Assembly: GCF_000003815.2 (NCBI RefSeq)
Contig: NC_049988.1
Span: 12,677,969 to 12,741,968 of the forward strand
Origin: Branchiostoma floridae
Taxonomy: Eukaryota; Chordata; Leptocardii; Amphioxiformes; Branchiostomatidae
Length of the DNA stretch: 64,000 bases
Direction of reading: 5' to 3'
Below, piece by piece: positions 1 through 45,648 of the stretch. The translations under genes were made by a program, and so were the position numbers. The notes under the pieces were generated by a model. The model was not told the origin of the DNA, ran no database searches, and saw only the letters and a program-made list of their open reading frames with translations. Positions within the stretch are counted from its first letter, which is position 1. Every line of letters starts with the position of its first letter.

Positions 1-71
1 ATCGAACATCCGCTAGACCAATGGCTAGCATATGTCTATATAATATATATGTATTTCATTCTCTACCTCAG

Positions 72-874
72 CCAAGAAACTTTTCTTCCGACCTCTGGAA
101 TACGTACATGGGATCTGGAATTGGCTTGAACTGGTCACCGTTGCTGTCGGTCTCTGCACTCTGTGCTTGTACTTCTACACACAAAGCATCATTGACGACG
201 TGTCGGAACACAGAGCAGCCGGTAACGATGATTTTAACATGTACAAAGATGCCGTCAACTGGTTCCAGATCTACAGCGTTCTTCTGGGTCTGTTCATATG
301 TTGCGCCACTTTAAAGTTCCTCCGCATATTGCGCTTCAACTCCCACGTGTACGCCTTGTCTACAACGATGAAGAAATCTTTCAAACACGTCGCAAAGTTC
401 ATGGTTACAGTTGGAATAATAGTCAAAGCTTTCACCGTGATGGCAACTTTGGTCTTTGGTAGCAAGTTGCAAGGTTTTAGAAACATGGCTTCAAGCTTGC
501 AAAGCCTTCTTGTTATGATGTTGGGTAGCTTCAACTTCGAGGATCTTGTTGATGGAAATAGAGTATTAGGTCCATTGATGTTTTTCGGGTATCAGGTCAT
601 AATGCAGTTCTTCCTACTAAGCATGTTCATGGCCATCATTATGGATGTGTATGCACAGGACAGACATGCTGTTAATCCAAACCATACAGGATTTGTTGAC
701 TTTATTAAACAAAGTATATCAAGTGCAGGAAGAAAATTAAGGGGCGCCATATCCAATATCTGGACGAAGAAGCCGCAGGTTACAAAAGACACGCCGCCAG
801 ATTTACTTGAGTCAGTTGGGCATGTATTGGAAAGGCTTGACAAACATAATGCTAGATATGATAGCACCCTTTAG
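72..874 (+). CDS. Polycystin-1-like (PKD/TRPP) channel, last coding exon
   Basis: C-terminal 266 residues of a polycystin-family membrane protein. A pyrimidine-rich tract and AG at 70-71 mark the acceptor; the frame opens with a split codon (phase 2) and ends at TAG 872-874. In order: a membrane segment around LVTVAVGLCTLCLYFYT, a second (YSVLLGLFICCATLKFL) followed by the basic stretch LRILRF typical of polycystin-1-like proteins, a third (FMVTVGIIVKAFTVMATLVFG in part), a pore-loop region with LGSFNFEDL, and a last membrane helix ending MAIIMDVYAQ. The tail is about 80 residues with a short possible helix (LLESVGHVLERLDKH); no EF hand is seen. Family knowledge: these proteins are ciliary or plasma-membrane cation-channel subunits. 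The KFLRILRFN stretch favours the PKD1/PKD1L branch over PKD2, but this is not certain. Upstream exons lie outside the window. Confidence 0.92.
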
Positions 875-2577: not shown

Positions 2578-3154
2578 CTTAAACAACGAAATTATCATAG
2601 GGTAAATTATGACCATTATATTTGTACTTCATACCGATATTTATCATTTTAGTTAATAGAAACTCTGCGACCTCGGCACTTTGCCAAAAGATTTTAATCC
2701 TTACAGTTTATGTATTACTTGTGTATCTACTTGATGGTGAAATAAGTCTCATTTGCTTATACTACATTGATGGTCCTCTCCTCAAACCAAATAACAGAAG
2801 TTGTCCAAAATTGAGTCTATTCTAAAGCTTACCCATAAAAAGTGAAAGATTGATATTTTTTTCTATCGATCTAGATTTTCTAATCCAACTGATTAGAATG
2901 GTCTGAAAGTACGTTTACCTTCCTTTGTTTAAACAGGCTCCCTCCAGGCAGTACGCCGAGATGACGGTATCGAACGGACGGAACACAGCCGGGTGTAGAG
3001 GGTTCTCATTGTGCACGTCACAAAACACTGTTTCTTTTATGGCACTTCTCAGCTGCTCTTGGCGTTCTTCCCACCTTGGACAGGAAAAAAGGAATGAACA
3101 GAGTAGACTTGAGTGAAAAAAAACACAATACAAAAAACACAACGCACTCCCTGA

Positions 3155-3185
<31 letters not shown>

Positions 3186-5332: not shown

Positions 5333-5765
5333 CCTTCGTTGGTTCGAAATTTTAAAGAAAATGTTTACTTTGTTTAATGCAAATTAATTGTAGTTTGATA
5401 AGTTTAATGATTAAAATATTTGATAACTCACTTCCTTGACGGACACGTACAGGCTTATCACAATTCAAATCAGATAAACCTTGTATTTTTTTTAATATAT
5501 ATTTTACCAACGCCACGAACAATGGGTAAAATATGTCGCTGCTTTTAATGACAAAGGGTCGAATTTCGGCGCAGCCGAGGCCTGGGGAGATAATTAAATT
5601 ATAACTACCGCTAAATCATGCACAAGTCATTCGCACACAAAGGGACACCTAAATAGTTTCCACACGATCGCACATGTGTACTAAGGTTGCAGTGCTCGCG
5701 CACACGGGTTTACACAAAATGGTACGTTATAGATACGCAAATGGTCCATTTCCTCGGGTTTACAA

Positions 5766-14550: not shown

Positions 14551-15477
14551 AGTAGTAGTAGTAAAATCATTCTTTATTCGGAAAATAAAGGAAAGTGACA
14601 TTGATCCCAGGTCATGCCGGTCTTTGCAGATCAAACATGCAGGGAGACATGGACAAATTGACATACGACATTACAATAATGATATCAAACACTTTAGTTC
14701 AGTATCGTCTTAAAATCATTCGTCTTAAAATCATTCTATTGCACAGTATTCCCAGTGTGGCTCATGTCGAGCTCTCCATATCGCATAGGAGGACAATAAT
14801 GACATTCGACTAATGTCTCTGAAGAGCTTCTTTGGTACTTTTGCCTTAACAGTCTTGAACAGCGTTCTGAGTCTATTCTTGTTATCTGGGGTGATAAGCC
14901 CCCTTGACCCAACCTCAACACAAGTAAGAGTAACTGAAATGCCTGTTTTGCTCAAGTCTGACACAAGGGAAGTATATTTGTTAACCTTACGCTCATGACT
15001 GGCTTTAATGTTCTGTTCAAAAGGTACAGTTAGTTCTTGTATATGGATGGTGTTTTCTCTAGGCAGGAATATGACTAAGTCCGGCTTCTGTGCTGTAGGT
15101 ATGGTTTGAACAGGAATAGTACCGCCGTCAGTTGTATACCCTTGCAAGTCTGCGTAGACACGGACGTCTATCTGCGAGTGATCAATGTTCTCCTGAAGGG
15201 TATCCACTATGAGTTTAAGTATGGAATTGTGCCGGAACGTATATCGTCCTTGCTGAAGGGAGACGCCACAGTTATTAAGAACATGATGTAGAGTTTCCCT
15301 GTTACCGCACAGTTTGCATTTGTCATTGGTACGCTTGCCCCAAGTGGCTAGATTACAGAATGTCGGCAGAGCGTCTATCGATGCACGTACCGCGAAGCTG
15401 AGAATACCCTTTGGGAGGTCATACATCACTGACTTCCAGGTGAGATCACATTTCTCTTCTTCGATAAGCTGTAGCAT
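14551..15477 (-). pseudogene. RLE-type non-LTR retrotransposon (R2/NeSL/Hero-like), 3' fragment
   Basis: An open frame of 248 codons (15477-14734) holds the C-terminal part downstream of the reverse transcriptase: a CCHC zinc knuckle C-x2-C-x7-H-x4-C (CKLCGNRETLHHVLNNC) and a restriction-like endonuclease motif K-P-D-x14-E with ELTVPFE following, then a KVNKY-type helix. The frame opens just after a stop near 15525, so the element is 5'-truncated and its RT core is missing. A short 3' UTR ends in a tandem trinucleotide tail (GTA on the plus strand, 14551-14566), a common 3' end for such elements. Clade assignment within the RLE group is uncertain. Confidence 0.85.
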
Positions 15478-16782: not shown

Positions 16783-17175
16783 AACGAATCAACAATGATA
16801 AGAGCGGTAAATTTAACATTTCGTAATTAGGTCATGAGTCCAAAGGGTAACCTGCTGACATCTGGGTCATCCTTTAGTTAAACGTTATCTAAATATAGTC
16901 TGGAAGCCAGACTGTTTCCAGGGCCTACATAAGCTAGCCAGACGGCTCCAGGGCTTACATAGCCCCAAGGAAATTTCCCCACATGCCCCTGTGTTAGACT
17001 CTAAAAAAACTCTGGTTAAGGTGCTTACTCCGGAATTAAGACAAATGTTTTGCTCCCTGTTGAAGGGTTTAATGTCGCCTTGCGCGGTGTCTGGCATCCA
17101 GACTATCTAAGTATGGCGACGGCAACGATCTCTCAGCTCTTGGTCTTTGCAGCTCTTCTTTCCGTCGAGCACGCC
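16783..17175. repeat. Right arm of the carboxylesterase inverted duplication
   Basis: Inverted match to 15796-16215, covering the gene's upstream region, leader and first 20 or so codons. The spacer 16216-16782 is not symmetric and holds no gene that I can see. Confidence 0.82.
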
Positions 17176-17322
17176 GGTGCCCTACCTCCGAAACCGGACG
17201 GTCCGATCGTCCACACTCGGTATGGAGACGTGCAGGGAATGTACGCGGAGGAAGGGGCCATCTTTCTCGGGCTCCCGTTCGGGGTTCCTCCGGTTGGTGA
17301 GCTACGCTGGAAACCTCCTCAG
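17113..17322 (+). CDS. Carboxylesterase exon 1
   Basis: Signal peptide and N-terminal strand region; donor CAG|GTAGTA at 17322/17323, phase 0. Confidence 0.93.
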
Positions 17323-20251
17323 GTAGTAGGGCTGTGTACATAGACTCTGGACTTAGACCATACCCGTTAGGGGTGGGTACTGGTACATCAAATTCAACTA
17401 CAGGTATGGTCCAGGTCCGGAGGATCAGGTCCTGGTCTGGACCTAAACCTGGACCTAGTTGCTTGTGAAAACTTGTGAATTGGAAATACTCAAAACAATG
17501 GTATATTTTATAACAAAGGAATCTTAACGGAGAATACGACTGGCGTTTTAAACTGTTATTTTCATGTACAAGACAAATACCTCTGCCATCATAGACCGAT
17601 TATCTCTCCTTTACTTCGCCCTGGTTATTTCTTGGGGTCGTAAGCCCGAAAATACGTAAACGTCTGCCTGTAAAATTTTTCTTTTTCTAGCGGTTCAAAG
17701 TCCGGTTTACTGATTTCTGGCAGGTTCTCGTTTTTTTGTCGGACCGGTCCAAGAAGAAAAACGGTTCTGTATCGGTACACCGTACCTGTAAACTGTTTAG
17801 GTACGAGTCCGGACCTAAACACCTGTACTGTACCTGTACCTAAATTACTGGTGAACTCCACCGAAGATATATAAGCAAATTCCGTCGCAAAGATAACATC
17901 TTTTGATAACATACCAGTTAAAGATTGACAATACTTAAAATACGATTGTTTTGGGACTCAAATATGTAATGTTTTATACAAAGGTGACAATTTATCAATT
18001 AAAATACAGGTAGGTACATCGTTAATTAACCATAACTGTTACGCTACAGGTACAGGTGTGGACATGTACCTGTATCCATGTACAGTACCTGTACCTAAAA
18101 ACTGCCCTACCCAGTTAAAGATTGAAAATACTTACAAATGTGCTTGTTTTGAGACTCAAATATGTGATGTTTCATACAAAGATGACAATTTATCACTTAA
18201 AAATGCAGGTAGGTACATCGTTAATTAACCATTATAATAGTTGTCTGTTCAGGTACAGGTCTTGACCAGTACCTATATCCATGAACAGTCCATGTACCTA
18301 AAATCTGCTCGCCCAGTTAAAGATTGAAAATACTTACAAATGTACTTGTTTTGAGACTCAAATATGTGATGTTTTATACAAAGATGACAATTTATCGCTT
18401 AAAAATGCAGCTAGGTACATCGTTAACTAACCATAACTGTTCAGGTACAGGTCTTGACCAGTACCTGTATCCATGTACAGTACATGTATCTAAAATCTGC
18501 CCTGTCCAGTTAAAGATTGAAAATACTTACAAATGTACTTGTTTTGAGACTCAAATATGTGATGTTTTATACAAAGATGACAATTTATCACTTAAAAGTA
18601 CGGGTAGGTACATCGTTAACTAACCATAACTGTTTAGGTACAGGTACAGGTACCTTGTGGCGAAAAGACTTGCCTTGTTGCGAATTGACATATTGTTGCG
18701 AAACAACCTGTAACGCCTATCTCCATGTTCAGTACTTGTACCTAAATTTTGCACTATTCTCAGGCGTACAACCTGTCCTGGGCGCCAGACGTTCGCGACG
18801 GCACTGTACCGGGCCCGGCGTGCCGACAAGACGGGTGTGGAGTGAACGACACCGACTATCAATACACCTGCAACCGCGACAAGAACAGGACGCAGAGCGA
18901 AGACTGCCTGTACCTTAACGTGTACGTGCCCAGATCCCTTTTACTGAACACTACTGTCAGTCTACCTGTTATGTGTTGGATACATGGCGGACAGTATGTT
19001 GGCGGGACGGGTGCTGCTTTAGTATATGACGGACGGTTTTGGGCCAACAAGACCAACACTGTCGTCGTGACCACAAACTACAGGCTCGGAGCGTTTGGCT
19101 ACCTGGTGACCGGAGAGGGAGAAGACGACGCAAGGGGCAACTATGGGACTCTAGATCAGATTGAGGCACTCAAGTGGGTCCAGCAGAACATCGCTGACTT
19201 TGGCGGTGACAAGGACAAAGTGACCGTTATCGGACAAAGCGCCGGGTCAGATTCGATTGCAGTTCTCCTGACATCCGCTAGGGCGGCAGACCTGTTCCAC
19301 CAGGGCATCATGCTGAGTGTGCCGTTCTCCATCACTCACAAGACTCAGTTTGAGGCGATTCGTCTCGGGAACGATATAAGCAAGCTCGTGAACTGTTCTG
19401 ACGGGGATATGAAGTGCCTTCGCTCCGCGCCTGCTGACGATATTCTTCACGCTCAAGATGAAGCGGGTAGATACATAGCCGACCCCTTTAGGCTGCTAGA
19501 AATATTTCTTCAGTGGGGCCCTACAGTAGATGGCGACGTTTTGCCCAGGCAAACTGTAGATAGTTTTGCAAGGGGACAGTTTCAGAAGAAACCGTTCATC
19601 ATTGGCAATGTGGGGGAAGAAGCTGTTCTGTACGTTTATTCAGCTTTTGGCAAGCCAATGTCAAAACTTGAGTTGGATGCTGTTGCTTTGGCATTTTTCC
19701 GTGGAAAAGGCCCGACAGTGCTTCGTGAGTATAACCCGCCTCAAACATCAGACTACCGTCCGTTTTTGTCTCAAGCCGCGACAGACTGGGTTTTCGTATG
19801 TTCAACCCGAAATGTCATCCGAAATGCAGTCGCAAGTGGCGAACAGGACGCCTGGCTTTACGTTTTTGACCATGTCTGGTCCTTCGCGAACTTTTGGAAC
19901 GACTCTAGTTTCTGTAATGGCCACGTCTGTCACGGCGAAGACATTCCGTTTGTATTTCAAACAAACCATTTGGTGAATATTAGCTTTACCCCTGACGAAC
20001 AGGTTTTGGCCGACACCATGGCATACCACTACGGTAACTTTGCACACACGGGGGACCCGAACAAGTCTAGTCCGCACGTCTGTATCCCAAACAATGTCCT
20101 CAAGTCCCCACTTAACTGGCCCAAGTACAACGAAGCTAACCACTATCCCAACATAAATTTCACCACTCCACATAACGTTATAGTTCACGCTTATAACAAG
20201 GAAAAGTGTGATTTCTGGGATAAGGAAAATATCTACTCAGGAACAAATTAA
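17113..20251 (+). CDS. Secreted type-B carboxylesterase / cholinesterase-like hydrolase, complete two-exon gene
   Basis: Exons 17113-17322 and 18764-20251 join in phase 0 to give 565 residues, the usual family length. The start MATATISQLLVFAALLSVEH is a signal peptide. Family landmarks in order: YGDVQG, FLGLPFGVPPVGELRWKPPQ (exon 1); the EDCLYLNVYVP signature; oxyanion HGG (HGGQYVGGT, with Gln where Gly or Ser is common); the serine signature FGGDKDKVTVIGQSAG with nucleophile Ser at about residue 229; catalytic Glu in GNVGEE (about 355); catalytic His in CHGEDIPFVF (about 460). The triad is intact, so it should hydrolyse carboxylic esters in the secretory path or outside the cell. No membrane anchor, GPI signal or ER-retention tail is seen at the end (ENIYSGTN). 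An in-frame ATG upstream at 17050 is less likely because it would precede the signal peptide. The exact substrate cannot be told. Confidence 0.95.
17369..17842 (+). repeat. GGTACC dispersed repeat, copy A (carboxylesterase intron)
   Basis: Starts 'aggggtgggtac', then 'ggtccaggtccgg', 'cctaaacctggacct', 'acttgtgaa', 'atactcaaa', 'caatgg', and ends 'ggaccggtccaa' with 'cggtac'. Same block order as copies B (34758), C (41706, reversed) and D (42325, reversed). Confidence 0.75.
17914..18640 (+). repeat. Tandem array, unit about 195-199 bp, nearly four copies (carboxylesterase intron)
   Basis: 'cagttaaagattg' begins units at about 17914, 18113, 18312 and 18507. Each holds 'tgttttgagactcaaatatg', 'gatgacaatttatca', 'aggtacatcgttaa' and a GTACCTG/CAGGTAC-rich block. 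Short open frames here are repeat artefacts. The GTAC block resembles the GGTACC dispersed repeat. Confidence 0.9.
18764..20251 (+). CDS. Carboxylesterase exon 2
   Basis: Acceptor CACTATTCTCAG ends at 18763; starts AYNLSWAPDVRDGTVPGPAC and carries the whole catalytic triad to TAA at 20249-20251. Confidence 0.95.
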   Translation, partial: AYNLSWAPDVRDGTVPGPACRQDGCGVNDTDYQYTCNRDKNRTQSEDCLYLNVYVPRSLLLNTTVSLPVMCWIHGGQYVGGTGAALVYDGRFWANKTNTVVVTTNYRLGAFGYLVTGEGEDDARGNYGTLDQIEALKWVQQNIADFGGDKDKVTVIGQSAGSDSIAVLLTSARAADLFHQGIMLSVPFSITHKTQFEAIRLGNDISKLVNCSDGDMKCLRSAPADDILHAQDEAGRYIADPFRLLEIFLQWGPTVDGDVLPRQTVDSFARGQFQKKPFIIGNVGEEAVLYVYSAFGKPMSKLELDAVALAFFRGKGPTVLREYNPPQTSDYRPFLSQAATDWVFVCSTRNVIRNAVASGEQDAWLYVFDHVWSFANFWNDSSFCNGHVCHGEDIPFVFQTNHLVNISFTPDEQVLADTMAYHYGNFAHTGDPNKSSPHVCIPNNVLKSPLNWPKYNEANHYPNINFTTPHNVIVHAYNKEKCDFWDKENIYSGTN

Positions 20252-29347: not shown

Positions 29348-29496
29348 TTAGCATATGGAGGCTATGTCTTCGTGAGAACACCCCCTCTCACAGCAGTAGT
29401 AGGCCAGTCCAGCCTGTTTCCTAGTCACGGTGTGAACATCTTCCGGTCTTCTGCCTTGGAACGGCAATCTGTCCACATGGTATCCAGTCCGGTCAT
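29348..29496 (-). CDS. Relaxin-like gene exon 2: rest of C-peptide and A chain
   Basis: Acceptor TTTTTCATCTCACAG ends at 29497; the first two bases complete a Tyr codon and the frame runs DRTGYHVDRLPFQGRRPED, HTVTRK, then the A chain to TAA 29350-29348. The exon lies antisense to an unrelated plus-strand frame and is easy to miss because it has no ATG of its own. Confidence 0.9.
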
Positions 29497-32400
29497 CTGT
29501 GAGATGAAAAATACAAAATATTTTTTTAAATATATGTTTGATATTTTTGCCCTAATTTAGGCACACATTGCCATACCGTTAAAAACTAACACATTTTCTG
29601 ACGTCATACTGCCATCAGTGCAGTCGTCATTGGCAACAGAAGACTTGGCAGACTTAAAGAATCTTAAAGATAACCTTAATATTCAATGTTTCTTTAATAC
29701 CTATTACGGAAATTTCCTTTTTAGGCGGTTTTAGGCAGAGGGCATTTACACCTGGGAACATCCTTATGGAGCTTGCGTCGGCTTTCGTGCAATATCGTAC
29801 ATAATTATCCAAATGCCAAGCTTGCTTTTACTGTATTATCTGCATTATTGTGTCGGACGTCATGCGAACGGAAAACCCTCTTTTGTAAAAAGAACCGTAA
29901 TGGTTTGATATTGGTCACTGACCCTTGGATAGCCAAAGGTGGATTGCAAGGAGACCAGAAGACGTCTCTGCAAATGAAATCTTAATAAGTTTAGCTTGTT
30001 GACGTCTGCCAAAGAGATAGCTTAGACTCCGACTGATAGCTAGACAGAGAGAAAAATGTTCTGTGAGTGATCAGATACATGTTTCAGCATTGATATAGAT
30101 GGGTTTTGTTGTATCGTATGGTATCCACATTGTTTATTGTCTTAATTAACCACAAGAGAAACGTTGTCAACCCAAGGAAACTTCGAACGCCTGATACCCA
30201 ATTTGTTTTTCAATTTACAACTTTGTTTGATGTTTGAATTTGTTTATTTATAAAAGCCAAATCAAAAATGAGATTTTCCTTTTATCTTTGCGTTTCTAAA
30301 GTAACATACGACAACCTTAGCATCGGAGGGTTACAACGGGCAACTTCAACCTTTTATAATGTTTTAATCTGTTACAAGAAGATCATCCTTACGCCTTATC
30401 AAAAGTACACTTAGATACTGCTTCTATGTCTTAAATTTCACAGTCAAACAGCTGGTCACGATCAGCAGTTATTATTTGGAAGCACGCTTATTTCTTCGAT
30501 TTTTGAAAGGTTTTGAGTAGCGAGGAATTTCATAAAAAAACTTGTGGGCAGGTTTAAAGATTAACGCCTTACATATCTTTGATCAAATAATCATATTTAC
30601 AACATCAAAGAATATACATCAAAGTCTTCTTTCTTTGTAAAGACTGTGTTTCTTACATAGAAACATCAGTTGCCTTTGATAGTTCAAAGCTACTTAAAAA
30701 AATAAAAGCGAAACTCTGTTTTGGGTTCCTGTGCTGTCTCTATCTTTAATTTCCTTTTTTTTGCATTCGACTCATTGTTTGGGACCCGAATTTAATTTGC
30801 TATATTAAATCCGTCAATCTGAGCATAGGAAAATACATTTTTATCTACTCTGTGTCAAAAAGTTCAGATTTTTTGGACAGACTGAATGAATTGTACTTTT
30901 TCATCCAACCAACTAAATTTCCTATGACGTTTAAAAATCTACCGGTAACCCTGCAACGTTTGCTGTCCCGACGAAAAGTACTATGCACAAGTAGCAAGGT
31001 TATTATACTTACAATTTACAGTGTTAGGGTTATTTGGCTAACAACTAAGGTCTAACAAATATCGTCACCAAGCTAACACCAGTATCATCCCATTCATTTG
31101 CATTGACGCATGGCAAGCCTTTAGACATTGGCCAGGATCAAGCTATTTTTTTTACAAAACAGGTTTTCTGACATGACGTCCAAGACAATCATGCAGATAA
31201 GGGAGTAAAATGAATATCTATGCTTAAAGTACCATTTTCTATATTGGACGAAATTGGTGACCTTCTGAAGCTGAAGAAAGTCTTTGAGATACTAGGTTTG
31301 CATCGGACATAATGTACCTAAAAGAGCTATTCGCAGATAAGGTGTCTAACAGAGACACATGCTATCTTTCGTCAGTGAGTGTGAATGGGTCTCTGAAGTA
31401 CTTTGGAGAATGAAAATGTTTATCATACAAAACTTTTGTCCCAATTGAAAAAGAGGGCCCTCCCGAGCAATTAACCTGTCGCTTTTTTGCCATTTTCTGT
31501 TTTTTTTATGAGAAAACAAGTAGTTACAAATTTGAAGGGAAAATAAGCCAGTTCTCCTTGAACTCGTCATATGGTCCTTGGGTTTTGGCTGATTCTGTCA
31601 TCAAATTAGCATATTTTTTGCAATTTTAATTATGAAAGATAACACACGATTTTATCTATGTAAGAAAACAGTAGTACTATTGCAAATGAACGTCAAAAAA
31701 TACATTGTTGGAACCAAAATAGGCGATTTTCGTCAAAAATGCCTGTCAACAAACGGTTGGGAATAATGGGAATTTCTTTTGATAATATGTAAAATTGTAG
31801 CCAACTAAATTTAAGGAAAACTTACTGAATTTGGTTGCCCTAGCTTTAGCGGTTCTGGCGATATGCGACATGAAAGTTTGCGGAGGCCTCAAAAGCCCCC
31901 CCCCCCCCGTCTGAATAGGATTAATCTACTCTATACTAGAATAGCACAGTTGTGCACATCACTCAAGATACCCATGACATTAGAAGATATAAACTCTACT
32001 ATACTTTGTCAAGCTTGTTGAACAACTGACAAGTACTTGACTTGGATTTTAAGGTCAGCTTTTAAGATGTTTCGACATGCGTCATAAGTTCTTAAGAAGC
32101 AAACGATTTCCTTATGAACTTTCTTTAAGGACACTGGCTTCATGGTACCTCGAATTGTTGTTCAGACCTTCCTTTGGCTTTGTCTTCATTTTTAGCTGCC
32201 AGATTCCATTTAGATAAAACCGTAGAAAGACTTAAGAAGGGAGTAGACTACGAAAGGTGATCAATAAGTCCTCGGCCTCAACCAGAATTAAGAAGCACAA
32301 CTCATATTTCGATGCACAACTTCATAGTATGGAGACTTTAATCCTCTAATTTTCAAATCATTGCAGTCATTACTTTCCAGGTATTCGTTTTTTTTTAAAT

Positions 32401-35400
32401 AAGAAGGTAATTATAAGTTGCGAGAAAAACAAAGGTAAATTGTAATCAGGCATATGTAGGTCGAGTTCCCATGCTGTTAATTTTTTGTCATTAACAAAAG
32501 ACGTTGTCAAAATGTAAAATTCTCTTCCTATTTCAAGCAGAAAGAAGTGGGCGTCTGACTTCCAGCAGCGCAAGTTGACCCGCTTGTCTCAGGTCGCAGC
32601 TCAATTGTCCACGTTTTTTCCTTCTCCCTTACCTATCGTTACTGCAAAGTAATGAACACACCTACTTGAATTTTGGTACACATTCATAAAAGACTTTAGA
32701 CTTGACATCTATTCTTCCAAATATGAGTTGTTCCGAGTTGTTTCTTCGAAATATGAGTTACAAACAAACAAAGTTATGCTTCTTATTTCTGGGTGAGGCC
32801 GAGGACTTATTGATCTCCCCTTCGTAACTGAAGACAACTATGCATATGAAAGGAATCGGGAAAATTTTGATATAGCATATTCTAGTAACAAGTTTTGATG
32901 AAATTACTAACATAAGTTAAACTTTGATGACACTAAAGACATAGCGAAAATTGTATTATAAATTGTTTTTGAATGGTATTTTCAAAAAGAATGATAACAC
33001 TTGGTGTCATGCATTGAATAAGAACTTAAATCATTGCAAGGAAAATGGTAACAATGCATTGCTTTTGGAGTAGGTGTGGTTTTATGTATGTGTGAGTGCG
33101 TACCATGTGAGATCATCTCTTATCATCTTTGCAACGGATTAAGTCAACAACATAATTCTTAGTGTAACCTCTTTGACACTTTCTATGTTTTGCTTTTATG
33201 TTGCTGTTGCTGTTGCCATATAGGGGCGTATCGAAGAGTTGATGACGCACCAGGTCGTCTATGACGTCAACACTTTACGGTGAGAAGCCAAGATCAAAAA
33301 TAGCTAACTTCTCAAAAGATAGATCGTTACTCCATATATGTTTAAAGAATCGGTAAGGTCGAGTGAGTGGGTTACATAGCTTGGAAAGAAACTTTATCAA
33401 ACACTACCGACATTAGTTCTAAAACAATACCGACAGGGCAATAATTTCATGTGTAAATGAAGATTTTGATCAGTCTGTCATTTTATCTCTAGACATCCTT
33501 TCTATATGCTAATGTTGATATAATTAGATGTCAGATTCTTTCAAAGTAATGCACTTGTGTATAATTAGTTGTACATGTTTACGCGTAACTTACTGCAATG
33601 CCAATACAGTAATTTTTTTCGTAATTTAATCAACTGAACCCCGTACCCATGTTTATATGTGCGGTAGTAAAACTTTACGAGAAACAAATTGAATGTCACT
33701 TCACTGACATCAAGAGTTATTACCTTCCACACAATAGATTTACACCTTGTCATTTCTCCTGTATTTGAAAAACTTATCACGTTCAGATACCTAGAAAAGT
33801 CACACGTCAGAAGAAATCTGTCAAAAAACATGCCATGACTTGTTTGAGGCATGAAAAAATGCCTTTATGCATGAGTCTCCCACGCAAGGTTTGAGATAGA
33901 ATCATTAAGACATAACGAAAGAGAACAAGCGTATCTGATAGACCCGTAGTGGGCCCTGTAGGTCCACAAACGGAAGCGGGCTATCAGTCATACACGCCGC
34001 CTGCTGACTCTGATTAGTGCCTACTCTCACGGGGTTACACGAATAGGGACCTTGTCGACAATCTTCAATCGAACATCAAGGTATTAAGTTCGTAGCTCTG
34101 AGTCCCAAGACACTAGTTTCTACCAAAGCTTACATCCACAAGTTTGATCTGCAAGTCCAACCGCGCTGGCTTAGGCCCTCTGAGACCCAACCAAGGTTTA
34201 TCTCTTGCTTTAGAACTACGACAGCTCGCTTGTGTTGTTTTAAACATGTTGGCAAAAAGGAAGACTGTTATTTCCGCTGGTTACCTTTGTACTCCCTAAG
34301 CTTTGTCTCCCTAAGCTCAGAAATAAAGCTTTCCGTTTTTTAGACATGTACGCACCATTGGGGAAGTGAGCCCACCGTCACGAATCGATTGTTTTAAAAA
34401 CATGACGGGTAACCAACTGAAATAAAGGTCGCTCTTTTGAAAACATGCCCAAAACATGTTTTCATAAGGGAAACCGTTATTTCAGTTGGCAACCCCTGCT
34501 TTCAAGGTGGTTGACCTGTTATGACGTAAGACGTAATGGTATGGTTAGATTTCAAAGAGATGATATTTATGACTTAACGGTACGTTGGTTTTTTAGCACA
34601 TTCATATTTAACGAAACTCTTTCTGCGACGCCAAGTTTGCTTTGTTGTTGAAGAACTTGCGATTGTTTTCCAAGCGAGTGACGTGCGGTCAATAAATTTG
34701 CACGTATATCTATCGCGCTTACTTGCCACATCCGGGGTGTTAGACGTCATGATGACTAGGGGTGGGTACCGATAAAGAAAATCCAGGTCCGGTTCAGGTC
34801 CAGAGAATCAGATCCAGGTCTAGACCTAAACCTGGACCTGATTCAGTATATGTACTGTTAGAACTTGTAAATGGACGATACTCAAACCAATGGTCCATTT
34901 CGCAACAAAGAAATCCGTTTCGTGGAGTATTCGACTCCCACTGGCGTGTTAAAATCCTAAAAGGCTAACTGCCTCTGTACTATTGACCGTAAAACTTGGT
35001 AGAAATGACTATAGAATCTACTTCACTTTGCTCTTCGACCGGTAAGTCTCGAAAGTTGTAAATGCTTGATCATATAACCTGTTAATTTTCCAATAGGTCC
35101 AACATCCGGGCCAACGATTTTTTTCAGGACTGATTTTTCTGGACTGGTCCAATAAGAAATACCGGTTTTGTACCGGTACAGTGTACTGGACCCACATAAG
35201 GACTATTTCCATCACGAAATTATGTAGAATTGTGATTACCACTGCATGGTGTTTGCCACCCGCCTTGCAAGTTTAGACGGGATGTAAGTGTGGGCCCACG
35301 ATAAGTTCTTGACTCACAAATTGTAGTAGCCCAACACAAAAAAGGTCATTTGTCAGCGTGATAAATTTATGAGGTGCTTTTCCATTACGTTAGTAGGCCT

Positions 35401-38400
35401 AAGGTATATCATGAAATTGCCCAAGCAAATTTTTAAGTGTTGTATGTAGGTTAGATTAAGGTAGAATATAACAATGTTGTACAAGCGATTTTAGGTGTGT
35501 TATTCTTGATTTAGTATGGATTAAGTAATTTTGTCATGTACTTTATTAACTTGGATAAAAGTTTATGAAAATTGCTCAAACGATTTTTAAAGTATAATCT
35601 ATGGTTTAAAATTAGATACAATGTAACCACGTTTAACAGACGATTTCAAGTGAGTAATGTTTGTTTTTAGAAGTGGGTACAGGTTTTGTCATGTTCTTTG
35701 AATTGGAAAAACGTTCTTGCCAGCAATCTACTTCAACAGTGTACTATAAAAAAATATGACACATATGCATAATTTCATTGTATTGCAACTGTGTTGCTTA
35801 ATTGCTAGGAAATCCAATGCCTAGATATATATTTTATTTATGATACACGCAAATTTAAATGAGAAATGTGGCTAGAGCTTTTACTTTGCTGGTTTCTTGA
35901 TGAACGCATCTCAGACAACAATGAACGCGCAACCTTTAAGGTTGTCACAATGCTCCGTTAAGCTACTTCGTCAAAAAAGATTAAGGACCTTCCGTAAGAG
36001 GTGACAAATTCCTCTAATTGGATCTTCTGACAGCCACCACAGTCGGTCGGCAATCAAGTTCAATGTCTTTGAGACTATCTTAAGATAAGACGGCTTTTGG
36101 ATATGTGTTCATGATAAGATACTCGCTATCAATTAACGTTCAATTTTCAAATGCCAACAAAGTTGTACCTCTTATCCAACCGCCTCTTGCAATACTTTAC
36201 AGTGTGGACAGTAATACGATTAATCATGGTAGAAATATATATTAATCGCATCAACGCGGTCTTATCACCCCATTTCAGAAACCATATCAATTTTTGAGAA
36301 TGATTAAACGGTAATCAAATTAATCTCTCAACTGATTGTCAAAATTTTAAAGCTTGACGACCTTGTATGACAAGTGACGTCATTTCAAGCTATTTTACTG
36401 ACCCCCAGAAATACACCAGTTGGTTCAATTGTTCCACCTGTCACTCAATACGACAGACTAACGTAAATATGTATTGTAGAAACCTAAGCTAGGCGTCTCA
36501 TGACACCCCCGCGTTCATATTTCAAACCAAAACTACGAACAAAGAGCTCTCTCGTTCGGTTACGTAACGCGAACGTAAACCAGTCCCTAAATTTTGAAGA
36601 TATCTGTTTTAACCTTTTCAGACCGGGCTTTTTTGGTCATCCCGGGGAGGGGGGTCTTTTGAGGCCCTCCACTTCTTAGTCCTATAACTTTAGAATTACG
36701 TGCCGTAGTGCCACTAAATTTTTAGGACATGATGTCGACATAAGATCTGACAAGTATTTGACGTTTCACGTTACGATGACGTAATATGACGTAATTATGA
36801 CGTCATCAATTTGATTATATTGGCCGGAACCATGAAAAAAGGGTATTCTCAGAAAAAAAGTTATAGAATGACGTCATGCACATCTAAGATGCGAGTTGGG
36901 CTCCATCATATTATATCCACCTCCTTGAATTTTTGAAAATACTTTTTTTGCAACAAATAATCACAAAGGGCAATGGAAATAGACTAAATTCATTTATTTA
37001 CATGGTTTTTGATGAAAAACTACCAGGTAGTTACAAATTTTAAGGGATAATTAGCTTGTTATTCTTGATCTGGCCATACGGTCCGCCATCTTGGATTTCG
37101 GACTGATGGCGTCATCAAATAAGCATAATTGATGCATATATAATTATGAAATATATGCTAAATAATATAAGATTTTATTTATGTAACAAAATAGCAATGA
37201 TACAGCAAATAAATGTGAAAAATACATTGTTAGAACCAAAAACAGTGATTTTGGCAAAACTACCTGTCAACAAACGGTTGCCATGGCAACACGAAAAAAT
37301 AGAAAAGCTGTCAAACTTCGTAAAATTGCTGCCAATAATGTTTTAGGACAACTCATCAAATTTGGTGGCTCTAGTGTAAGCCGTTCTGGCGTTATAGGAC
37401 ATCAAAGTTGTCGCAGGCCTCAACGTTTTTTCAACGAAGGCTTGAACCCTCATTTCATATTTCATATTCATACATTCATATACTTTTATGAATTATACAT
37501 ACCCTTTTACATACACCTCATTGTTCCAGTGTAATCACTTTCTTGTATTATCACAGCCAGTAAGTGCCTATCTGAGTATCAAAACTGTTGTAACAAACAA
37601 TGAACCCACATTTCACTTTCATTCCGAAAGAAAAATGTAGCTCCAACAAGTATACTACCCCCTGAAATTGAACTGGGGTCTACGAGATACCAAATGATTG
37701 GAACCGGAAGCTCAACTGAGCTCAATCTTTACCAATTGATCCACAAGGACCCAGCACAAACAAAAAAACTTCCTTAAATGCCCAGATTACGTGGTATTCC
37801 GCAATGCCCTATCATTCGTTTTGACATAGTGACTACTAAGAACAAGTTTCTCCTGACAGGAAATGACGTAATCGGGTATCCAGCCATGTTTCACTTAATT
37901 ACGTAAGGATTCCAGTTGCTAACTGGTGTAAACTGGACACGGCCGGTTATCAACATATGCCTAGGATCTAAGCACAAATGGTTTTGGAAGGCTTCGTTGC
38001 CTGAGCAATCAAGGAGGTGCAATTATTCTGGTTTAAGTATAGGATTGCATGGTGTTTTACCACGAGGGCTTTGGAGATTTAGCAAGCTTAGAGACCTATG
38101 TTTTCTTAATGTCACCCAAGACCAATTTATGGATTAGTGTAGATACATATACAAGGACCATTGATGTTTTTATGTGAAAAAAGTCCATGGTTATTGTAAC
38201 CAGCTCAATGCCTTCACGAACACCTACAGGATGCTTAACTGGTGCAAAAAAACAGATGAATATAACATGGCAGTTTAATATCCCCGCGCACAGCTCAAGG
38301 ATGCTTTGCCACTTCGAAACGTAAATGCTTAAGGTGATCTCATTGCACTTGGGACACCGGTGCGGCACTGCGGGGTTCGAAGATTTCTCAATGAATTTCA

Positions 38401-41400
38401 GAGATAAAGAACGAATGAATCGTTTTGTGTATTTTGTTGTCTTCTATGTCATACTTTTAGGTATACGCGATATATAAGTTATTTTTAAAAATGGCGAAAA
38501 TAATACAACAGTTTCACATTGAACGAATCCCGCAGTACCGCAACGGTGCCCCAAGTGCAGTGCCCACCTTTACTATGACCTTTTTAATGTCTCTATGGAC
38601 ATCTGACTTGAATATGTTTTCTATGTACTTAAGCTGATGATTATTACGACCTTCGCAAAGTGTCCACGAGCAAGTCATTGATGCTTTGTACATACAAAAA
38701 GTCAATGCTTACTATGATCTTCTCAATGTCTCCCCACGCATCTCACTCAATGCTGTTATTAAAGTGCTGAAGTCGATGCTTACTACAACCTTCAGAATGT
38801 CCCCTTGCAAAACCTCGATGCTTACTACAACCTTCACAATGTCCCCTTGCAAAACCTCGATGCTTACTACAACCTTTACAATGTCCCCTTGCAAAACCTC
38901 GATGCTTACTACAACCTTCAGAATATCCCCTTGCAAAACCTTTATGCTTACTACAATCTTCACATTGTCCCCATATGCAGAGCCTTACTACAACCTTTAC
39001 AATGTCCCCCTTGCAAAAATTTGATGCTTACTACAACCTTTACAATGTCCCATTGCAAAATCTTGATGCTTACTACAACCTTTACAATGTCCCCTTGCAA
39101 AACCTCGATGCTTACTACAACCTTCACAATGTCCCCTTGCAAAACCTCGATGCTTACTACAACCTTTACAATGTCCCCTTGCAAAACCTCGATGCTTACT
39201 ACAACCTTCACAATGTCCCCTTGCAAAACATCGATGCTTACTACAACCTTCACAATGTCCCCTTGCAAAACATCGATGCTTACTACAACCTTTACAATGT
39301 CCCCTTGCAAAACATCGATGCTTACTACAACCTTTACAATGTCCCCTTGCAAAACATCGATGCTTACTACAACCTTTACAATGTCCCCTTGCAAAACATC
39401 GATGCTTACTACAACCATTACAATGTCCCCTTGCAAAACATCGATGCTTACTACAACCTTCACAATGTCCCCTTGCAAAAGCTCGATGCTTACTACAACC
39501 TTCACAATGTCCCCTTGCAAAACATCGATGCTTACTACAACCTTTACAATGTCCCCTTGCAAAACATCGATGCTTACTACAACCTTTACAATGTCCCCTT
39601 GCAAAACCTCGATGTTTACTACAACCTTTACAATGTCCCCTTGCAAAACATCGATGCTTACTACAACCATTACAATGTCCCCTTGCAAAACCTCGATGCT
39701 TACTACAACCTTTACAATGTCCCCTTGCAAAACCTTGATGCGTACTACAACCTTCACAATGTCCCCTTGCAAAACCTCGATGCTTACTACAACCTTTACA
39801 ATGTCCCCTTGCAAAACCTTGATGCTTACTACAACCTTCACAATGTCCCCTTGCAAAACCTTGATGCGTACTACAACCTTCACAATGTCCCCTTGCAAAA
39901 CCTTGATGCGTACTACAACCTTCACAGTGTCCCCGTTTGCAGAGCCTAATGATGTCTTCTTGGTACAAAACTCCATGTATACTGATATCTTTTCACTTCC
40001 TCTATGGACAACTAACTCAAGGATGTTTTGTAGTTGGTAGCGTTATTGCTTAACGCGACATTTGCATGAATTATACTTAGCATTTTGACACAGCTGTTTG
40101 TTCTGTGTACAAAACTCCATGTATACTGATATCTTTTCACTTCCTCTATGGACAACTAACTCAAGGATGTTTTGTAGTTGCTAGCGTTAATGCTTAACGC
40201 GACATTTGCATGAATTCTACTTAGCATTTTGATCCAGCTGTTTGTTCATTTTGATCCAGCTGTTTGTTCTGTGTAAATGTCGACACAATTCAGCCATCAG
40301 ATACAATGCCGTACATATTACAGTAAAACTTGCTATATACAGAAGTCAATGCTTACTGTGATCTTTTCAAAATCTCAAAAACCTAATCAATGGTGCTTTG
40401 AAGATACAAAATTCGGTAATTGCTATTACCCTGAGTGTCTGTGTGGCACAACGGCTAGAGCGTTGGAATCACAATCAGTAGGTCCTGAGCTCGATACCAG
40501 CCATACCCCTGCCCCCATGACGGTGGATTGGAGTGACGCCCACCGAGCCACACGGCTAATCTGTCTAAAGGTGCCAAGAACATCTACGGATTTGGTGCTG
40601 CCAGTGTTTCAACAACTTCACACTTGCCACTAAGACCCGTGATTTCTTTTTACTACTCTAACTACCTAAGTACAAGATATGATGATAAAGTAATCATAAG
40701 TACAATTAGTGATCTAATAATGTGGTATTCTATTTTATCTTCAGTGTAATACTTTAGGGTGAACATATTAATGATCTTCGTTCCATGATCTTCGTTCGCG
40801 AAGCCAAGCCGAGAGAGATATATTAACTTTAAACACCGTAAGAAAGCCCCTCCTCAAATGACGGTTTGAACATAGAGTAAAGTGATATTTTAGGTGCCAA
40901 AGGCGAGGATAACTGAGACCTTCCCAATACTTGTTCTGTCCGTACTATGTACTGGCTTTTTACACACCGCATATAGGTACTAAGCCAGCCTGAAGGCAAC
41001 CAATTATGCACGTACTCACGTTACGGTTGCCTGGGTGTGGATAATGATACAGCCTTTGCTACCACTTCTACCGCGAACTAAAAATTACCCTGACCTAGTT
41101 TGGAAACAGAAAGAGCTCTCTCACATGTTGCTCTGTGATAAAACATGTGCCGAATCTATTTAGAAAGTGATTGTTGCAGTCAACAGTGACCCAAATGCTA
41201 GGAGACTGCACAAAAAGATTATGGAATCTGACAATTCTAATAACGACATGTTAGTTTGCTAAACCCGGTTAAGGTGCACTCTCACCGCACTTGCGTCAAG
41301 CTTGCGGCACTGCGGGTCCGTTTACTGCGTCACTGTTTTGTTATTTTCTCCGATGTTTCGAGCCCCGCAGTGACGCAAGCGTGACACCAGTGCAGTGAGA

Positions 41401-44400
41401 GTGCACCTTAACACACCATATGGAGTAACACACCAGGTTTGCAATGAAAAGTACAAGCTGCATATTCGTGAAGATTCAATTGATCCTCTCACAACGGGAA
41501 GAGGGCCCTACTCTTTTCGATAATTGTAGTGGATTCTTTTACGTACATCATATGGCTCTCTTCAAACACAAGACCTCCATTTAACGTCCTACCCTTGGGA
41601 CGGTAATTACTGAAGCTCGGTACTCTTGTGTACCTGAGTGAAATTAGGATAGTAGTTTAAAGTGCATTTCCCAAGGGAACAAAGGTTCTGACTAGCGGTA
41701 TGTTCTTGTATGGTGTACCGGTACAAAACCGTTTTTCTTCTAGGACCTGTCCAGAAAAAAATGGACCTGAAAAAAATGGCTGGACCAGATGTTGGACCTA
41801 TTGAAAAATGAACAAACTATATGATCGGGCATTCACATGTTGTGGGGCTTACTGGTCGAAGAAAATAACAAGAGCGAAGTAGTGTAGAGTTTATAGTTCT
41901 TTCTACCAAGTTGTACAGTCAATCTTACAGAGGCAGGTAGCTCCCTAAGATTTCAAAACGCCAGTGGGAATCGAATGCTCCACCAAATCTTTTATTTGTG
42001 GCGGAATGGACCATTGTTTTGACTATTGCCTATTTACAAGTTTTCACATACCAAATCAGGTTCATGTCTGGATCTGGACTTGCACCTGATCCTCTGGACC
42101 TGAACCGGACCTGGACTTGAGTTTTCTGTATCGGTACCCACCCACACTACCCTTTGGTAGAAAAGCATCGGGGTACATATATCCATGGTCACTCATCACC
42201 ATAGGTCATTAGAATCTGTTAAAGACACCTATCATCAATGGTACCGCAGATAAGGCAACAAAAGTCGTGTACGTTTATAATAGGGACCATACGTTCTAAA
42301 CGCATCAGCGATCAATGTGTTGCTACTAGGGGTACCGGTACAAAACCGTTAATTTCATCTTGGACCGGTCCGGAAAAACAGGACCCAAAAAAAAATCATT
42401 GGACCGGATGTTGGACCGATTTGAAAATGAACAAATTATCCCGGCAGGCGTTCACTTGTATTGGGGCTTACATGTTCAAGAAAATAACGAAGCGAAGTAT
42501 AGTAGAGTTGATTATCATTTTCATCCAGTTCCCAGAGTCAAACTTGGTCTAAAACAGGGACAGTGAGTGCTGTTTACATGGAGATATGATTGTAAAACAC
42601 CAATGGACGTCGGGCACTCCACCTAACAGGACCATTGTTTTGAGTAAAATACGTTCACAGATAATTAGGTCCAGGTCAGGACCTGGACCGTACCCGGGCC
42701 TGCATTTTCTGTACCTGTACCCACTCCTTGTTGCTACCCATGGCACATTCTTTATGAAACACTCATTGCAAAATCTCGCTAACTCTACTTCTAAATCGAA
42801 GTTAATCTTGCATTTCGTATTCACAATCCTCGCAAAAAGGCCTCTTTCTCGGTTTCTTATGTCCACTAAGTACGTCTCAATCCTCAGACGAATTTGCAGA
42901 CGTCATTTGCTTCTCCTAAGGGCCTAACAGTGACGCAATAGTTACCCTAAGGTACCACCTAAGTGCGATTGTGATGAATGTGAAGTTAATGATGCGGTGA
43001 AAGGTGGAGTAGATAGGCCTCTATTATGTCGGATCATTGCTCCCAGGACCATGTCTATCTTGCACTTTGTAATGATTTTTTTTTACATGATAGCCCTAGG
43101 TTAAGGTTGGACATGTGACAGTCTTGTATAATTGTTAATGGGGATAAATGTGTATTGTGGTATGCAAATGCAGAGGTCAACGCCTTCGAAAAAGAAAAAA
43201 AGTGCAGGCACATTACATGATTTTGATGACTCACAACATTCATAGTGGTGAAATAAAAACGGCCACCAAATGTTTTCTTTATGTGCAGATGTATAAAGCT
43301 TGAGACTTACATCTAAAACCCGCTAATATGCGGAGCAGTCGTATTTACATCACCATCCGAAATGGCGAATGCAATTTCCTATATGTCCAAGCCATGAGAC
43401 CAACCCTAGAATTGAACCCTTATCAAACGATCTGCGGAATTCAGATAGCCAAAAGAGGGGTTGCGTTACCTTCTGTGTCACGGGGACATCTATAGGAGCA
43501 AATGGTCTTCATGGCAACATAAAAACTAAAATAAAAAAAATCAGAATATGTTCAAGTCACCCATACGGCATGTCAACTGCATCTATGAGGCTTTCCACAA
43601 AACAAACCACAAAACCACGCCTTTAAAGTATCGCGAGTTCGCACTCGAGTGACATCTGAAAAAAGGTGCCCTTCCTAAGGAAAATATCAAAGCTTTCAAT
43701 TCAAGGTTCGACATCCTTGCATCGACGTCCAGGGACGACATATAAAAAAATCCTTTTCCTGTCTTACTAACGCGGTCTATTACACGCACAAAGCCGCTAT
43801 TGCTAGGTAAAGCCTCGTGAGTGCATGTTAGGACCTTCTAATCAGACCTTTCGCTGGCTTGCTCGTAATGTACATTAAGGGATGAAAGCTCAAGCGTAAG
43901 ATCGTACTAAGGGTATGTATTAGCACTTGACACACACACACACACAACGGTATCTCTCTTGCGTAAAAGGTGCTTAGATGTCATTTGACCAGCACAGATC
44001 ATCGCTCAATGTCCCTCCAAAGAAGCGAATGGGCAAAGGACAGAAATGTAAGATAGTAAAACCAATTACGGTGGCCGAGATCTAAGGCTGGCGGGATCTT
44101 TTTGCAAATGCAAAACTTGTTAGCCTGGCTTCGTACACTACCAAGTCGCTCATTTTTTTTATAATATGGAGCTCCAAAAGCTGTCAATGATTAAACAACA
44201 GCTTCAACATAAGATGGCATCTGACATCTAAGACATAGAGTAAATGTTAAAGCAAACTTACAGTGTTTAGTCAGACCTGGCAGATGGTAAGGACCTTCCC
44301 AACGACGTCGTTCATCTGCTTGCCAGGACCGTTTCGACCGTGCGCAAGTACGGGCGACGAATCTTAAAAAGTCTCTACCGCAGTAGCGGGGGGACCTCTT

Positions 44401-44466
44401 CGAAACCGGAACGGACGCGGCGGCGGCGAGCACCAGAACGGCCACCACTAGACCAAGCAGCCTCAT
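29348..44466 (-). CDS. Relaxin/insulin-superfamily prohormone, complete two-exon gene
   Basis: Exons 44466-44262 and 29496-29348 join to 354 nt, 117 residues plus TAA, across one phase-1 intron of 14,765 bp; a phase-1 intron in the C-peptide is the conserved layout of insulin/relaxin genes. Residues 1-19 or so (MRLLGLVVAVLVLAAAA) are a signal peptide, followed by a KR site. The B chain is YCGRDFLRFVARTC: Cys29-x11-Cys41. It ends at RSKR, a furin-type site. The C-peptide runs to TRK. The A chain is QAGLAYYCCERGCSHEDIAS plus IC: Cys103, Cys104, Cys108 and Cys117, i.e. CC-x3-C-x8-C with the last Cys as final residue. The six cysteines fit the two interchain and one intrachain bridges of the superfamily. 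CGR-[DE]-F and CC-x2-GCS-x2-(E)-x-I match relaxin-3-type chains better than insulin, so a secreted relaxin-type hormone acting on a leucine-rich-repeat GPCR is likely. The B-chain RxxxRxx(I/V) receptor motif is present as R31-DFL-R35-FV but with Ala38 last. No ortholog name is assigned. Confidence 0.9.
31400..31920 (+). mobile_element. piggyBac-like (TTAA) element, right-end fragment
   Basis: Internal blocks ('acaaacggttg', 'aatttggttgccctagc', 'gcggttctggcg', 'gcggaggcctcaaaa') match 37260-37430. The right end, read inward, is TCCTATTCAGACGGGGG, next to TTAA at 31921-31924, mirroring the left end at 6733. Confidence 0.65.
32251..32824. mobile_element. mariner-like non-autonomous element (574 bp)
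   Basis: Left end cgaaaggtgatcaataagtc continuing ctcggcctca; right end read inward cgaaggggagatcaataagt continuing cctcggcctca. TIR of about 30 bp with few mismatches, flanked by TA on both sides (32249-32250, 32825-32826). 'GATCAATAAGT' ends are typical of mariner elements. No transposase frame. Confidence 0.85.
34407..34495. repeat. Long imperfect hairpin, arms about 41 bp
   Basis: 'gggtaaccaactgaaataaa' through 'gaaaacatg' on the left and its inverted counterpart 'catgttttcat' through 'atttcagttggcaaccc' on the right, with a 7-nt loop. Confidence 0.8.
34758..35193 (+). repeat. GGTACC dispersed repeat, copy B
   Basis: Most complete copy: 'aggggtgggtaccgataaag', 'ccaggtccggttcaggtcca', 'actcccactggcgtgtt', 'ggtccaacatccggg' and 'accggttttgtaccggtaca' near the end. 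Lies in the relaxin-like intron. Confidence 0.8.
36613..37445 (+). mobile_element. piggyBac-like (TTAA) element, long copy with decayed right end
   Basis: TTAA at 36609-36612, left end CCTTTTCAGACCGGGCTTTT; shares 'gaggccctccacttcttagt', 'cgccatcttggattt', 'ggttgccatggcaacac' and 'gttctggcgttataggacat' with 45653-46625 and 31400-31920. Confidence 0.7.
37660..37770 (-). mobile_element. tRNA-derived SINE fragment
   Basis: Minus strand reads a tRNA-like head: 'gtggatcaattggtaaaga' (A-box region) and 'agttcaatttcaggggg' (B-box region). Confidence 0.5.
38333..38578. mobile_element. TTAA-type short MITE (246 bp)
   Basis: TTAA at 38329-38332; left end ggtgatctcattgcacttgg, right end 'ggtgccccaagtgcag' then 'tgcccacc'. 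Same internal 'tttcagagataaagaacgaa' as 25279-25513. Confidence 0.85.
38776..39940. repeat. 42-bp minisatellite, about 27 units
   Basis: Unit: 'cctcgatgcttactacaacc' plus 'tttacaatgtccccttgc' plus 'aaaa'. Variation is limited to a few sites (cctcg/catcg/ccttg; tttac/ttcac/attac). Degenerate precursors occur at about 38570 and 38707. Because 42 is a multiple of 3 and the unit lacks stops in four frames, open frames of 323-411 codons arise on both strands; none is credible as a gene. Confidence 0.97.
39963..40260. repeat. Direct duplication of about 147 bp next to the minisatellite
   Basis: 'tacaaaactccatgtatact', 'cttcctctatggacaactaa', 'gcttaacgcgacatttgcat' and 'cagctgtttgttctgtg' occur twice, at about 39964 and 40109. 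A third short 'attttgatccagctgtttgt' repeat follows. Confidence 0.9.
40433..40560 (+). mobile_element. tRNA-derived SINE fragment (different head)
   Basis: 'tgtggcacaacggctagagc' (A-box-like) and 'gtcctgagctcgatacc' (B-box-like), then 'atgacggtggattggagtg'. Confidence 0.55.
41273..41407. mobile_element. TTAA-type MITE, 135 bp, with target duplication
   Basis: TTAA at 41269-41272 and again at 41408-41411. The ends are exact inverted repeats: ggtgcactctcac and gtgagagtgcacc. This copy defines the family boundaries. Confidence 0.9.
41505..41690 (-). mobile_element. SINE body fragment
   Basis: Minus strand reads 'cccttgggaaatgcacttta', 'cactcaggtac', 'gagagccatatgatg' and 'gtaaaagaatccac', the body of the family at 21803 and 59712 without its tRNA head. 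Confidence 0.65.
41706..42146 (-). repeat. GGTACC dispersed repeat, copy C
   Basis: Reverse orientation to copies A and B: starts 'gtaccggtacaaaaccgttt', ends 'ctgtatcggtacccaccc'. Confidence 0.8.
42325..42730 (-). repeat. GGTACC dispersed repeat, copy D
   Basis: Same orientation as copy C and only about 180 bp from it: starts 'aggggtaccggtacaaaacc', ends 'tctgtacctgtacccactcc'. Confidence 0.8.
44262..44466 (-). CDS. Relaxin-like gene exon 1: signal peptide, B chain, start of C-peptide
   Basis: ATG 44466-44464 after a GA-rich leader; donor CACT|GTAAGT at 44262/44261, phase 1. GC-rich compared with its surroundings. Reading past the donor would give an unrelated tail (CKFALTFTLCLRCQ), which is intron. 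Confidence 0.9.
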
Positions 44467-45648
44467 GTTCTCTCTTCCTTCTCCCTCTCTCTTTCCCTCA
44501 GTCGGCGGTAGCTGGAGTTAGTGCGTGTGTGGTGAACCCCTCACTTGGAATTCCACTTCTCACACCTGCCGAGGCGTTGGAGTAATGTTAAGTAGTCTCG
44601 CGCCTTAATCTTTGCGATATGAATATATCAAGACGAGTAAGGCTTGGCCAATCATGTTCACTCCACCTACACTCTCTCTTCTACCGTCTGCGTATACACG
44701 TCAGCACGTCAAAGTTGAGTCGGCGCCCAAGGGAAGCGACAAAGACTCCGCCAAAAAGACCGCTCTCTGACGTATTCATAAACCGGTTTGAAACACGCGT
44801 CTGTTATAATTAGTTTTCAGGAAAGATCAGTGGTAGATAACGTCATCACATAACTTTCAAGCTACCTGCTGTTCATCATAATGAAAGCCTTGCCGACGTT
44901 TTGGACAACAATTATGAACAGTTTGCATGCAAGTGGCCTCGTTTGTCGTCCCTATCAGCAAGTCTTTGGATCACCATGACGTCGTCTTCACAACGCTTTC
45001 AACAGCTGCAAATCCACCGAGTCTACAACCTTGACACACAAGAAATCTTATTTCATGAGTAGTTCAAGCGACATTTCAAATAAATGAACAATTTGCGACT
45101 TGTGTGTTTCGCTTTCTATTGAATCATACGTTTAGTCCATTCATCATATCTTATTCATATTGGCATAGGTCATATGCTAATTCAATTATGATGAGTCAAC
45201 GGCCTGGACTCCATACGGTAAAAAGAGAGCGGGCTAATATAGCGTGTGCGTGTAAACGACGTGAATAACAATTGCTCGAACTCCTAAAGCATTCGTAAAG
45301 GATGTATTTTATATGATTTACGCATGCTTTTGAAAGACTTTGCGTGTGCTTAAAGATAAGATCCGTCTAGTGAAGCCGCAGTAGTGTACAGACCGTGAAT
45401 AGTTACTAACCTTTATCTAATTTTTAAACCCGCCCGCCGAAAAGTATTCGTAAATATTGCGTTTTTATAGTTAACGTAGTACTACGTTTTAAGAACGGTT
45501 AACGTATGTTTGTAATATGATTTCGTCTAACGTGCAGTGGTATAGGGTCCATGAAAAACAACTACCCAAAATGCAGTCTTTAAGCCGTAAAGTATGCGTA
45601 AAGGTTTCGGTTTTTTTTTACGCTTGACGTTTTTCTAATGAATTCGCT
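44467..45648. other. Leader and upstream region of the relaxin-like gene
   Basis: On the minus strand the bases just before the ATG are a GA-rich leader (44467-44505). No TATA box was found within 150 bp. Beyond about 44850 the sequence is AT-rich with no recognised feature. Confidence 0.45.

Follow-up and report, generated by a model that had tools for sequence, protein, structure and literature searches.

A relaxin-like two-exon gene of the amphioxus Branchiostoma floridae and its tandem neighbour

Hormones of the insulin/relaxin superfamily share a six-cysteine plan, with C-x11-C in the B chain and CC-x3-C-x8-C in the A chain, and a phase-1 intron inside the C-peptide. An A chain ending on cysteine separates the relaxin/INSL peptides from insulin and IGF (PMC4772807), and a single phase-1 intron, without a phase-2 intron, is a mark of relaxin/Dilp8-type as opposed to Dilp7-type genes (PMC11863921). 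In Branchiostoma floridae, six superfamily members have been reported, two of the insulin-like peptide (ILP) type and four branching with vertebrate relaxins, the latter being the JGI models 100967, 72897, 74371 and 97394 (PMC4361685). Here we describe a minus-strand gene from a 64,000-nucleotide stretch of the B. floridae genome (the window; positions 12677969-12741968 of contig C10), which very probably represents an intact member of the relaxin subfamily with two exons, together with a second, complete gene lying in tandem with it. Hormones of this family had been reported from the species before, and our results refine the structure and arrangement of its genes without adding a new kind. 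The window gene appears to encode an ordinary two-chain hormone, whose splicing, processing, receptor and function are read from homology.

Joined GT..AG in phase 1, exons 44466-44262 and 29496-29348 give 354 nt, i.e. 117 codons followed by TAA, with no internal stops. The donor is GTAAGT at 44261-44256, and the acceptor side, directly before 29496, reads tttttcatctcacag; the two exons are inferred to be spliced to each other. The 117-aa product opens with a hydrophobic leader, followed by the B-chain cysteines (C29-x11-C41), the cleavage sites RSKR (43-46) and TRK (93-95, with RK at 94-95), and the A chain Q96-C117, in which C103 C104-x3-C108-x8-C117 is closed by a stop directly after the last cysteine (TGC then TAA). 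The coordinates and the phase-1 join given in a preliminary description of this DNA are therefore confirmed, and the signal peptide, Cys-x11-Cys, RSKR, TRK and CC-x3-C-x8-C ending on Cys are all present as described there. The gene thus carries both the six-cysteine plan and the C-peptide phase-1 intron of the superfamily. Its A chain ends on the last cysteine, as in relaxin/INSL peptides, and its leader and B chain both lie in exon 1, so that there is no phase-2 intron between them, which is the relaxin/Dilp8-type gene plan.

The chance occurrence of these patterns, which were picked after the gene had been seen, was estimated by simulating the window 300 times with a second-order Markov model. 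CC-x3-C-x8-C without a stop appeared in 41/300 simulations (the window holds 2), CC-x3-C-x8-C with a stop in 1/300 (the window holds 1), and the same with a stop and a dibasic site in 0/300 (again 1 in the window). The full B-chain pattern with a start Met and a basic site, present once in the window, was found in two of the 300 simulations, and the full A-chain (stop plus dibasic) and B-chain patterns occurred together in none. Bare C-x11-C is uninformative, with 89 occurrences in the window against a simulated mean of 95.4. The earlier claim that plain open reading frame (ORF) calling would miss both exons is wrong for exon 1, since this exon lies within a 91-codon ORF starting at ATG (108 codons from stop to stop).

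As for family assignment, the search with Pfam Insulin (PF00049) that had been proposed as a check placed the joined protein above the cut-off, if barely (1.4e-4; 23.2 bits against 23). When the Protein Data Bank (PDB) was searched with the window gene, with matches accepted at E up to 10, the five matches listed were A and B chains of relaxin-3 or A chains of INSL3. A profile built from the window gene and its tandem neighbour gave 18 PDB rows, 11 of which are relaxin, INSL3 or INSL5 chains, headed by the B chains of INSL5 (0.0011) and relaxin-3 (0.0034); the remaining 7/18 are unrelated proteins with weak scores. The assignment to the relaxin type within the superfamily, already made in the preliminary description, is consequently upheld by the nearest PDB chains, the intron phase, the A chain ending on cysteine and, marginally, Pfam.

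We also compared 35 cysteine-anchored core positions with those of other superfamily peptides, among them the starfish relaxin-like gonad-stimulating peptide (RGP), dropping the extra A-chain residue of the tandem neighbour from both this comparison and the tree, and comparing the C172 A-chain exon and the C135 gene by A chain only. The window gene is most similar to its tandem neighbour (20/35 identical), followed by human relaxin-3 (18/35), starfish RGP (16/35), INSL5 and a gene on contig C12 (15/35 each), INSL3 (14/35) and relaxin-2 (13/35), with the amphioxus ILP (C172 gene) at 9/35 and insulin and IGF1 at 8/35 each. The earlier suggestion that relaxin-3 or RGP would be the nearest relative therefore holds among the sequences compared from outside the genome, while in core identity the tandem neighbour is closer than either. 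In a tree of 11 sequences and 35 sites, from which the C172 A-chain exon and the C135 gene were left out, a phylogeny of the kind called for in the preliminary description, insulin, IGF1 and the amphioxus ILP split off at 94/93 and the window gene groups with starfish RGP at 76.9/72; the sites are too few to settle placement.

With vertebrate relaxin-3 the window gene shares, besides the core residues, CGR[DE]F, RxxxR and the AGL preceding the CC pair of the A chain, and differs from it in having Ala for Ile at the third position of the receptor cassette. It resembles starfish RGP in core identity and in having a single phase-1 intron (PMC11863921), and stands beside it in the small tree; it differs from RGP in keeping the two cassette Arg, which are absent there (PMC7682835).

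Several observations weigh against the relaxin assignment. The Pfam Insulin score lies only 0.2 bits above the cut-off, and the nematode model Ins_beta scores slightly higher on the A chain (6.2e-5; 23.4 bits, cut-off 21). Taken singly, the PDB matches of the window gene have weak E-values (0.06 to 0.4). Apart from the split of the insulin/IGF/ILP group, the branches of the tree, including the position within the relaxins, are weak as well (0 to 84 in the Shimodaira-Hasegawa-like approximate likelihood ratio test, SH-aLRT; 35 sites, 11 sequences), and the two tandem genes do not come out as a pair in it. A genome-wide search with PF00049 listed five places, neither C10 gene among them, and the RK site preceding the A chain is less common than KR or RR. 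Relatives of JAK, NFI and RFX are linked to vertebrate relaxin genes; the window gene differs in that, among the matches listed, none of these three markers fell on C10 (FERM_F1 0/3, NFI 0/1, RFX 0/10), the best matches lying on C2 (FERM_F1, a match not confirmed as JAK) and C15 (NFI and the best RFX). A vertebrate-like linkage was accordingly not found on C10 with these three markers. Furthermore, the RxxxRxxI/V cassette is incomplete in the B chain, which reads R31xxxR35xxA38 and keeps two of the three positions. Starfish RGP also lacks this cassette (PMC7682835, PMC4772807), and we therefore regard it as a trait of the vertebrate type and class the window gene as relaxin-like rather than as a relaxin of that type. 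Finally, B. floridae 72897, 74371 and 100967 are labelled IGF-type in an alignment that also uses 77763 (PMC4772807), and echinoderm GSS has been argued to have arisen independently from IGF (PMC8286064), so that names in the family are disputed.

The tandem neighbour, which as a complete gene is new in the present analysis, came to light in searches of the whole genome (513,431,437 bp in 431 contigs). Its B exon was found with the window gene as query (C10:12766283, E 0.15). The 292 kb around the window hold two CGRDF B exons, but the canonical A-chain pattern occurs there only once on the minus strand, namely in the window gene, and a relaxed pattern led to the A exon of the neighbour at 12762727 (CC-x3-C-x9-C). 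The idea of a single A exon serving both B exons was rejected because the relaxed search gave the neighbour its own x9 A exon. The complete gene (C10:12766444-12762674) lies 40-44 kb upstream on the same, minus strand. Its exons, 12766444-12766207 and 12762807-12762674, are separated by a phase-1 intron and encode 123 aa, so that exon plan and intron phase are identical in the two genes. The B chain (CGRDFIRTVVRVC) carries the full RxxxRxxV cassette, the A chain has the unusual spacing CC-x3-C-x9-C with one Phe past the last cysteine, and Pfam Insulin scores 1.8e-7 (32.4 bits).

The presence of two such genes raises the question of whether their exons are combined. The B exon of the neighbour (C10:12766444-12766207) might also skip its own A exon and join that of the window gene, giving hybrid beside plain prohormones: the two first exons lie on one strand and share a phase-1 end, the cross-join is open to the A-chain stop, and some RNA-seq sequences from starfish reportedly suggest an occasional combination of exons among clustered insulin-type genes (PMC8286064). 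However, an A exon of matching phase belongs to the neighbour itself, at a distance of 3.4 kb, and an open frame is weak evidence, since any phase-1 gene of the family would be compatible. We therefore consider such sharing very unlikely. It is a highly improbable extension of the same idea that the tandem genes form one exon-swapping locus, in which skipping of the upstream A exon would unite the cassette-bearing B chain with the window A chain in a third, hybrid relaxin of different receptor preference; if true, this would place a hybrid relaxin in a chordate whose lineage split off earlier than the multiplication of relaxins in vertebrates.

The window exons might also be remnants of a non-expressed copy in which the frame has stayed intact by chance. 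The very long intron with its tandem array, the altered receptor cassette and the lack of a second close copy among the assembly matches listed would all fit a pseudogene, but the six cysteines, both splice sites, both processing sites, the leader and the stop are all intact, and AATAAA signals lie downstream, and we judge this account very improbable as well. That the gene encodes an insulin/IGF-type or Dilp7-type peptide is extremely unlikely: Pfam Insulin does span insulin, IGF and relaxin alike, and the three B. floridae models mentioned above bear IGF-type labels (PMC4772807), but the A chain ends on cysteine, the core is closer to relaxin-3 (18/35) than to insulin and IGF1 (8/35), the single exon for leader and B chain, with no phase-2 intron, speaks against the Dilp7 type (PMC11863921), and insulin/IGF-like A chains belong to separate loci on C172 and C135.

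An intact relaxin-like gene is thus the preferred reading, and it is probably one of the four relaxin-like models already reported from B. floridae. Those models (100967, 72897, 74371 and 97394) were compared with the window gene by description. A literature text search made to match the gene with printed models turned up the accession EEA41967 alone (100967 was not sought), and EEA41967.1 has been used as a B. floridae relaxin-like sequence (PMC5396301). The suggestion that the gene might be missing from annotations finds no support, given the six members, four of them relaxin-like, already reported (PMC4361685).

The genome likewise holds at least six superfamily loci: two on C10, one on C12, an A exon on C172, and ILP-type genes on C172 and C135. 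As in the reported set, two of these have ILP-type A chains and four (C10 twice, C12, C172) do not. This number is a lower bound, since the PF00049 search missed both C10 genes. The C12 gene (approximately 6366050-6367250, minus strand) has the B chain CGRLLVRRFQRLC, a phase-1 intron, identified by eye, of under 1 kb, and an A-chain tail of eight residues after the last cysteine (Pfam Insulin 7.5e-7, 30.5 bits). Its core is about equally near to IGF1 and to the window gene (15/35 each), and we assign it to the superfamily only. The C172 A-chain exon (255559-255636, minus strand), approximately 160 kb from the ILP-type gene of that contig, is relaxin-like and ends on cysteine. It is nearer to starfish RGP than the window gene is, with 12/19 core residues identical to RGP, and possibly represents a closer RGP relative; no B exon for it was recognised within 10 kb upstream. 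The ILP/IGF-type genes (C172:417186-422728 and C135:60187) share the superfamily and the six-cysteine plan with the window gene and differ from it in A chains that run on past the last cysteine and, for the C172 gene, in the low core identity (9/35). A further match from the own-genome search, C15:7340517, was rejected because of in-frame stops and the lack of a B chain.

Judging from its processing sites, the 117-aa prohormone would lose its signal peptide and be cut after RSKR (43-46), after RK (94-95) and perhaps after KR (23-24). With the cut at KR, the B chain would span approximately S25-A42; two inter-chain bridges would hold it to the A chain, Q96-C117, which would have one more bridge within itself. 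The N-terminal Gln of the A chain could become pyroglutamate; human relaxin-2 carries a pyroglutamate formed from the N-terminal Gln of its A chain. The secreted peptide would most likely signal through leucine-rich-repeat G protein-coupled receptors of the RXFP1/2 (LGR3) type, plausibly in reproduction. Such a receptor is to be expected from the amphioxus receptor set, in which five rxfp1/2-type genes are described and the rxfp3 type is seemingly absent (PMC3310001), and from the action of starfish RGPs on an RXFP/LGR3 receptor (PMC11863921). The partial cassette R31xxxR35xxA38 may change receptor affinity; starfish RGP, without the cassette, still signals (PMC7682835). Among the literature matches listed, none was an article with amphioxus relaxin function in its title, and PMC8805411, as far as its excerpt goes, concerns ILP/IGF genes only.

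Amphioxus is not a vertebrate and lacks the genome duplications of that group, and an intact relaxin-like gene that combines relaxin-3-like with RGP-like features should therefore be useful for questions about the ancestral role of relaxin. Moreover, a tandem pair in which one gene has the full receptor cassette and the other does not would allow the pairing of ligand and receptor to be tested directly.

Table 1. Features of the window gene (window coordinates)
Feature	Position	Strand	Remarks
Coding exon 1: signal peptide, B chain, RSKR site, C-peptide start	44262..44466	-	205 nt, phase-1 end; matched to relaxin-3 B chain
Intron	29497..44261	-	14,765 bp, phase 1, GTAAGT..cacag
Coding exon 2: C-peptide remainder, RK site, A chain Q96-C117, TAA stop	29348..29496	-	149 nt; matched to relaxin-3 A chain
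Two AATAAA polyadenylation-type signals, candidate gene 3' end	29112-29107 and 29098-29093	-	~240 bp past stop; motif only
TATA-like motif (TATAT), weak candidate promoter element	44623..44627	-	~160 bp 5' of ATG; motif only
42-bp x 27.8 tandem array within intron of window gene	38773..39934	.	tandem repeat

On each strand, more than one frame runs open through the 42-bp array in the intron, which thus produces spurious ORFs of up to 411 codons. Elsewhere in the window, a carboxylesterase/cholinesterase-type gene of at least two exons lies on the plus strand at 17020-20251 (COesterase 1.2e-8 and 4.2e-97). A polycystin cation channel exon (44-874, plus strand; PKD_channel 6e-35) perhaps belongs to a gene cut by the window start. 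On the minus strand, 2301-2591 is an exon of an NNMT/PNMT/TEMT-type methyltransferase (7.4e-9), with a possible further exon, seen by eye, at 2915-3259; another by-eye candidate for this gene, 5123-5383, gave no NNMT match. The minus strand also carries a retroelement fragment with a zf-RVT domain (14731-15477; 2.7e-6).

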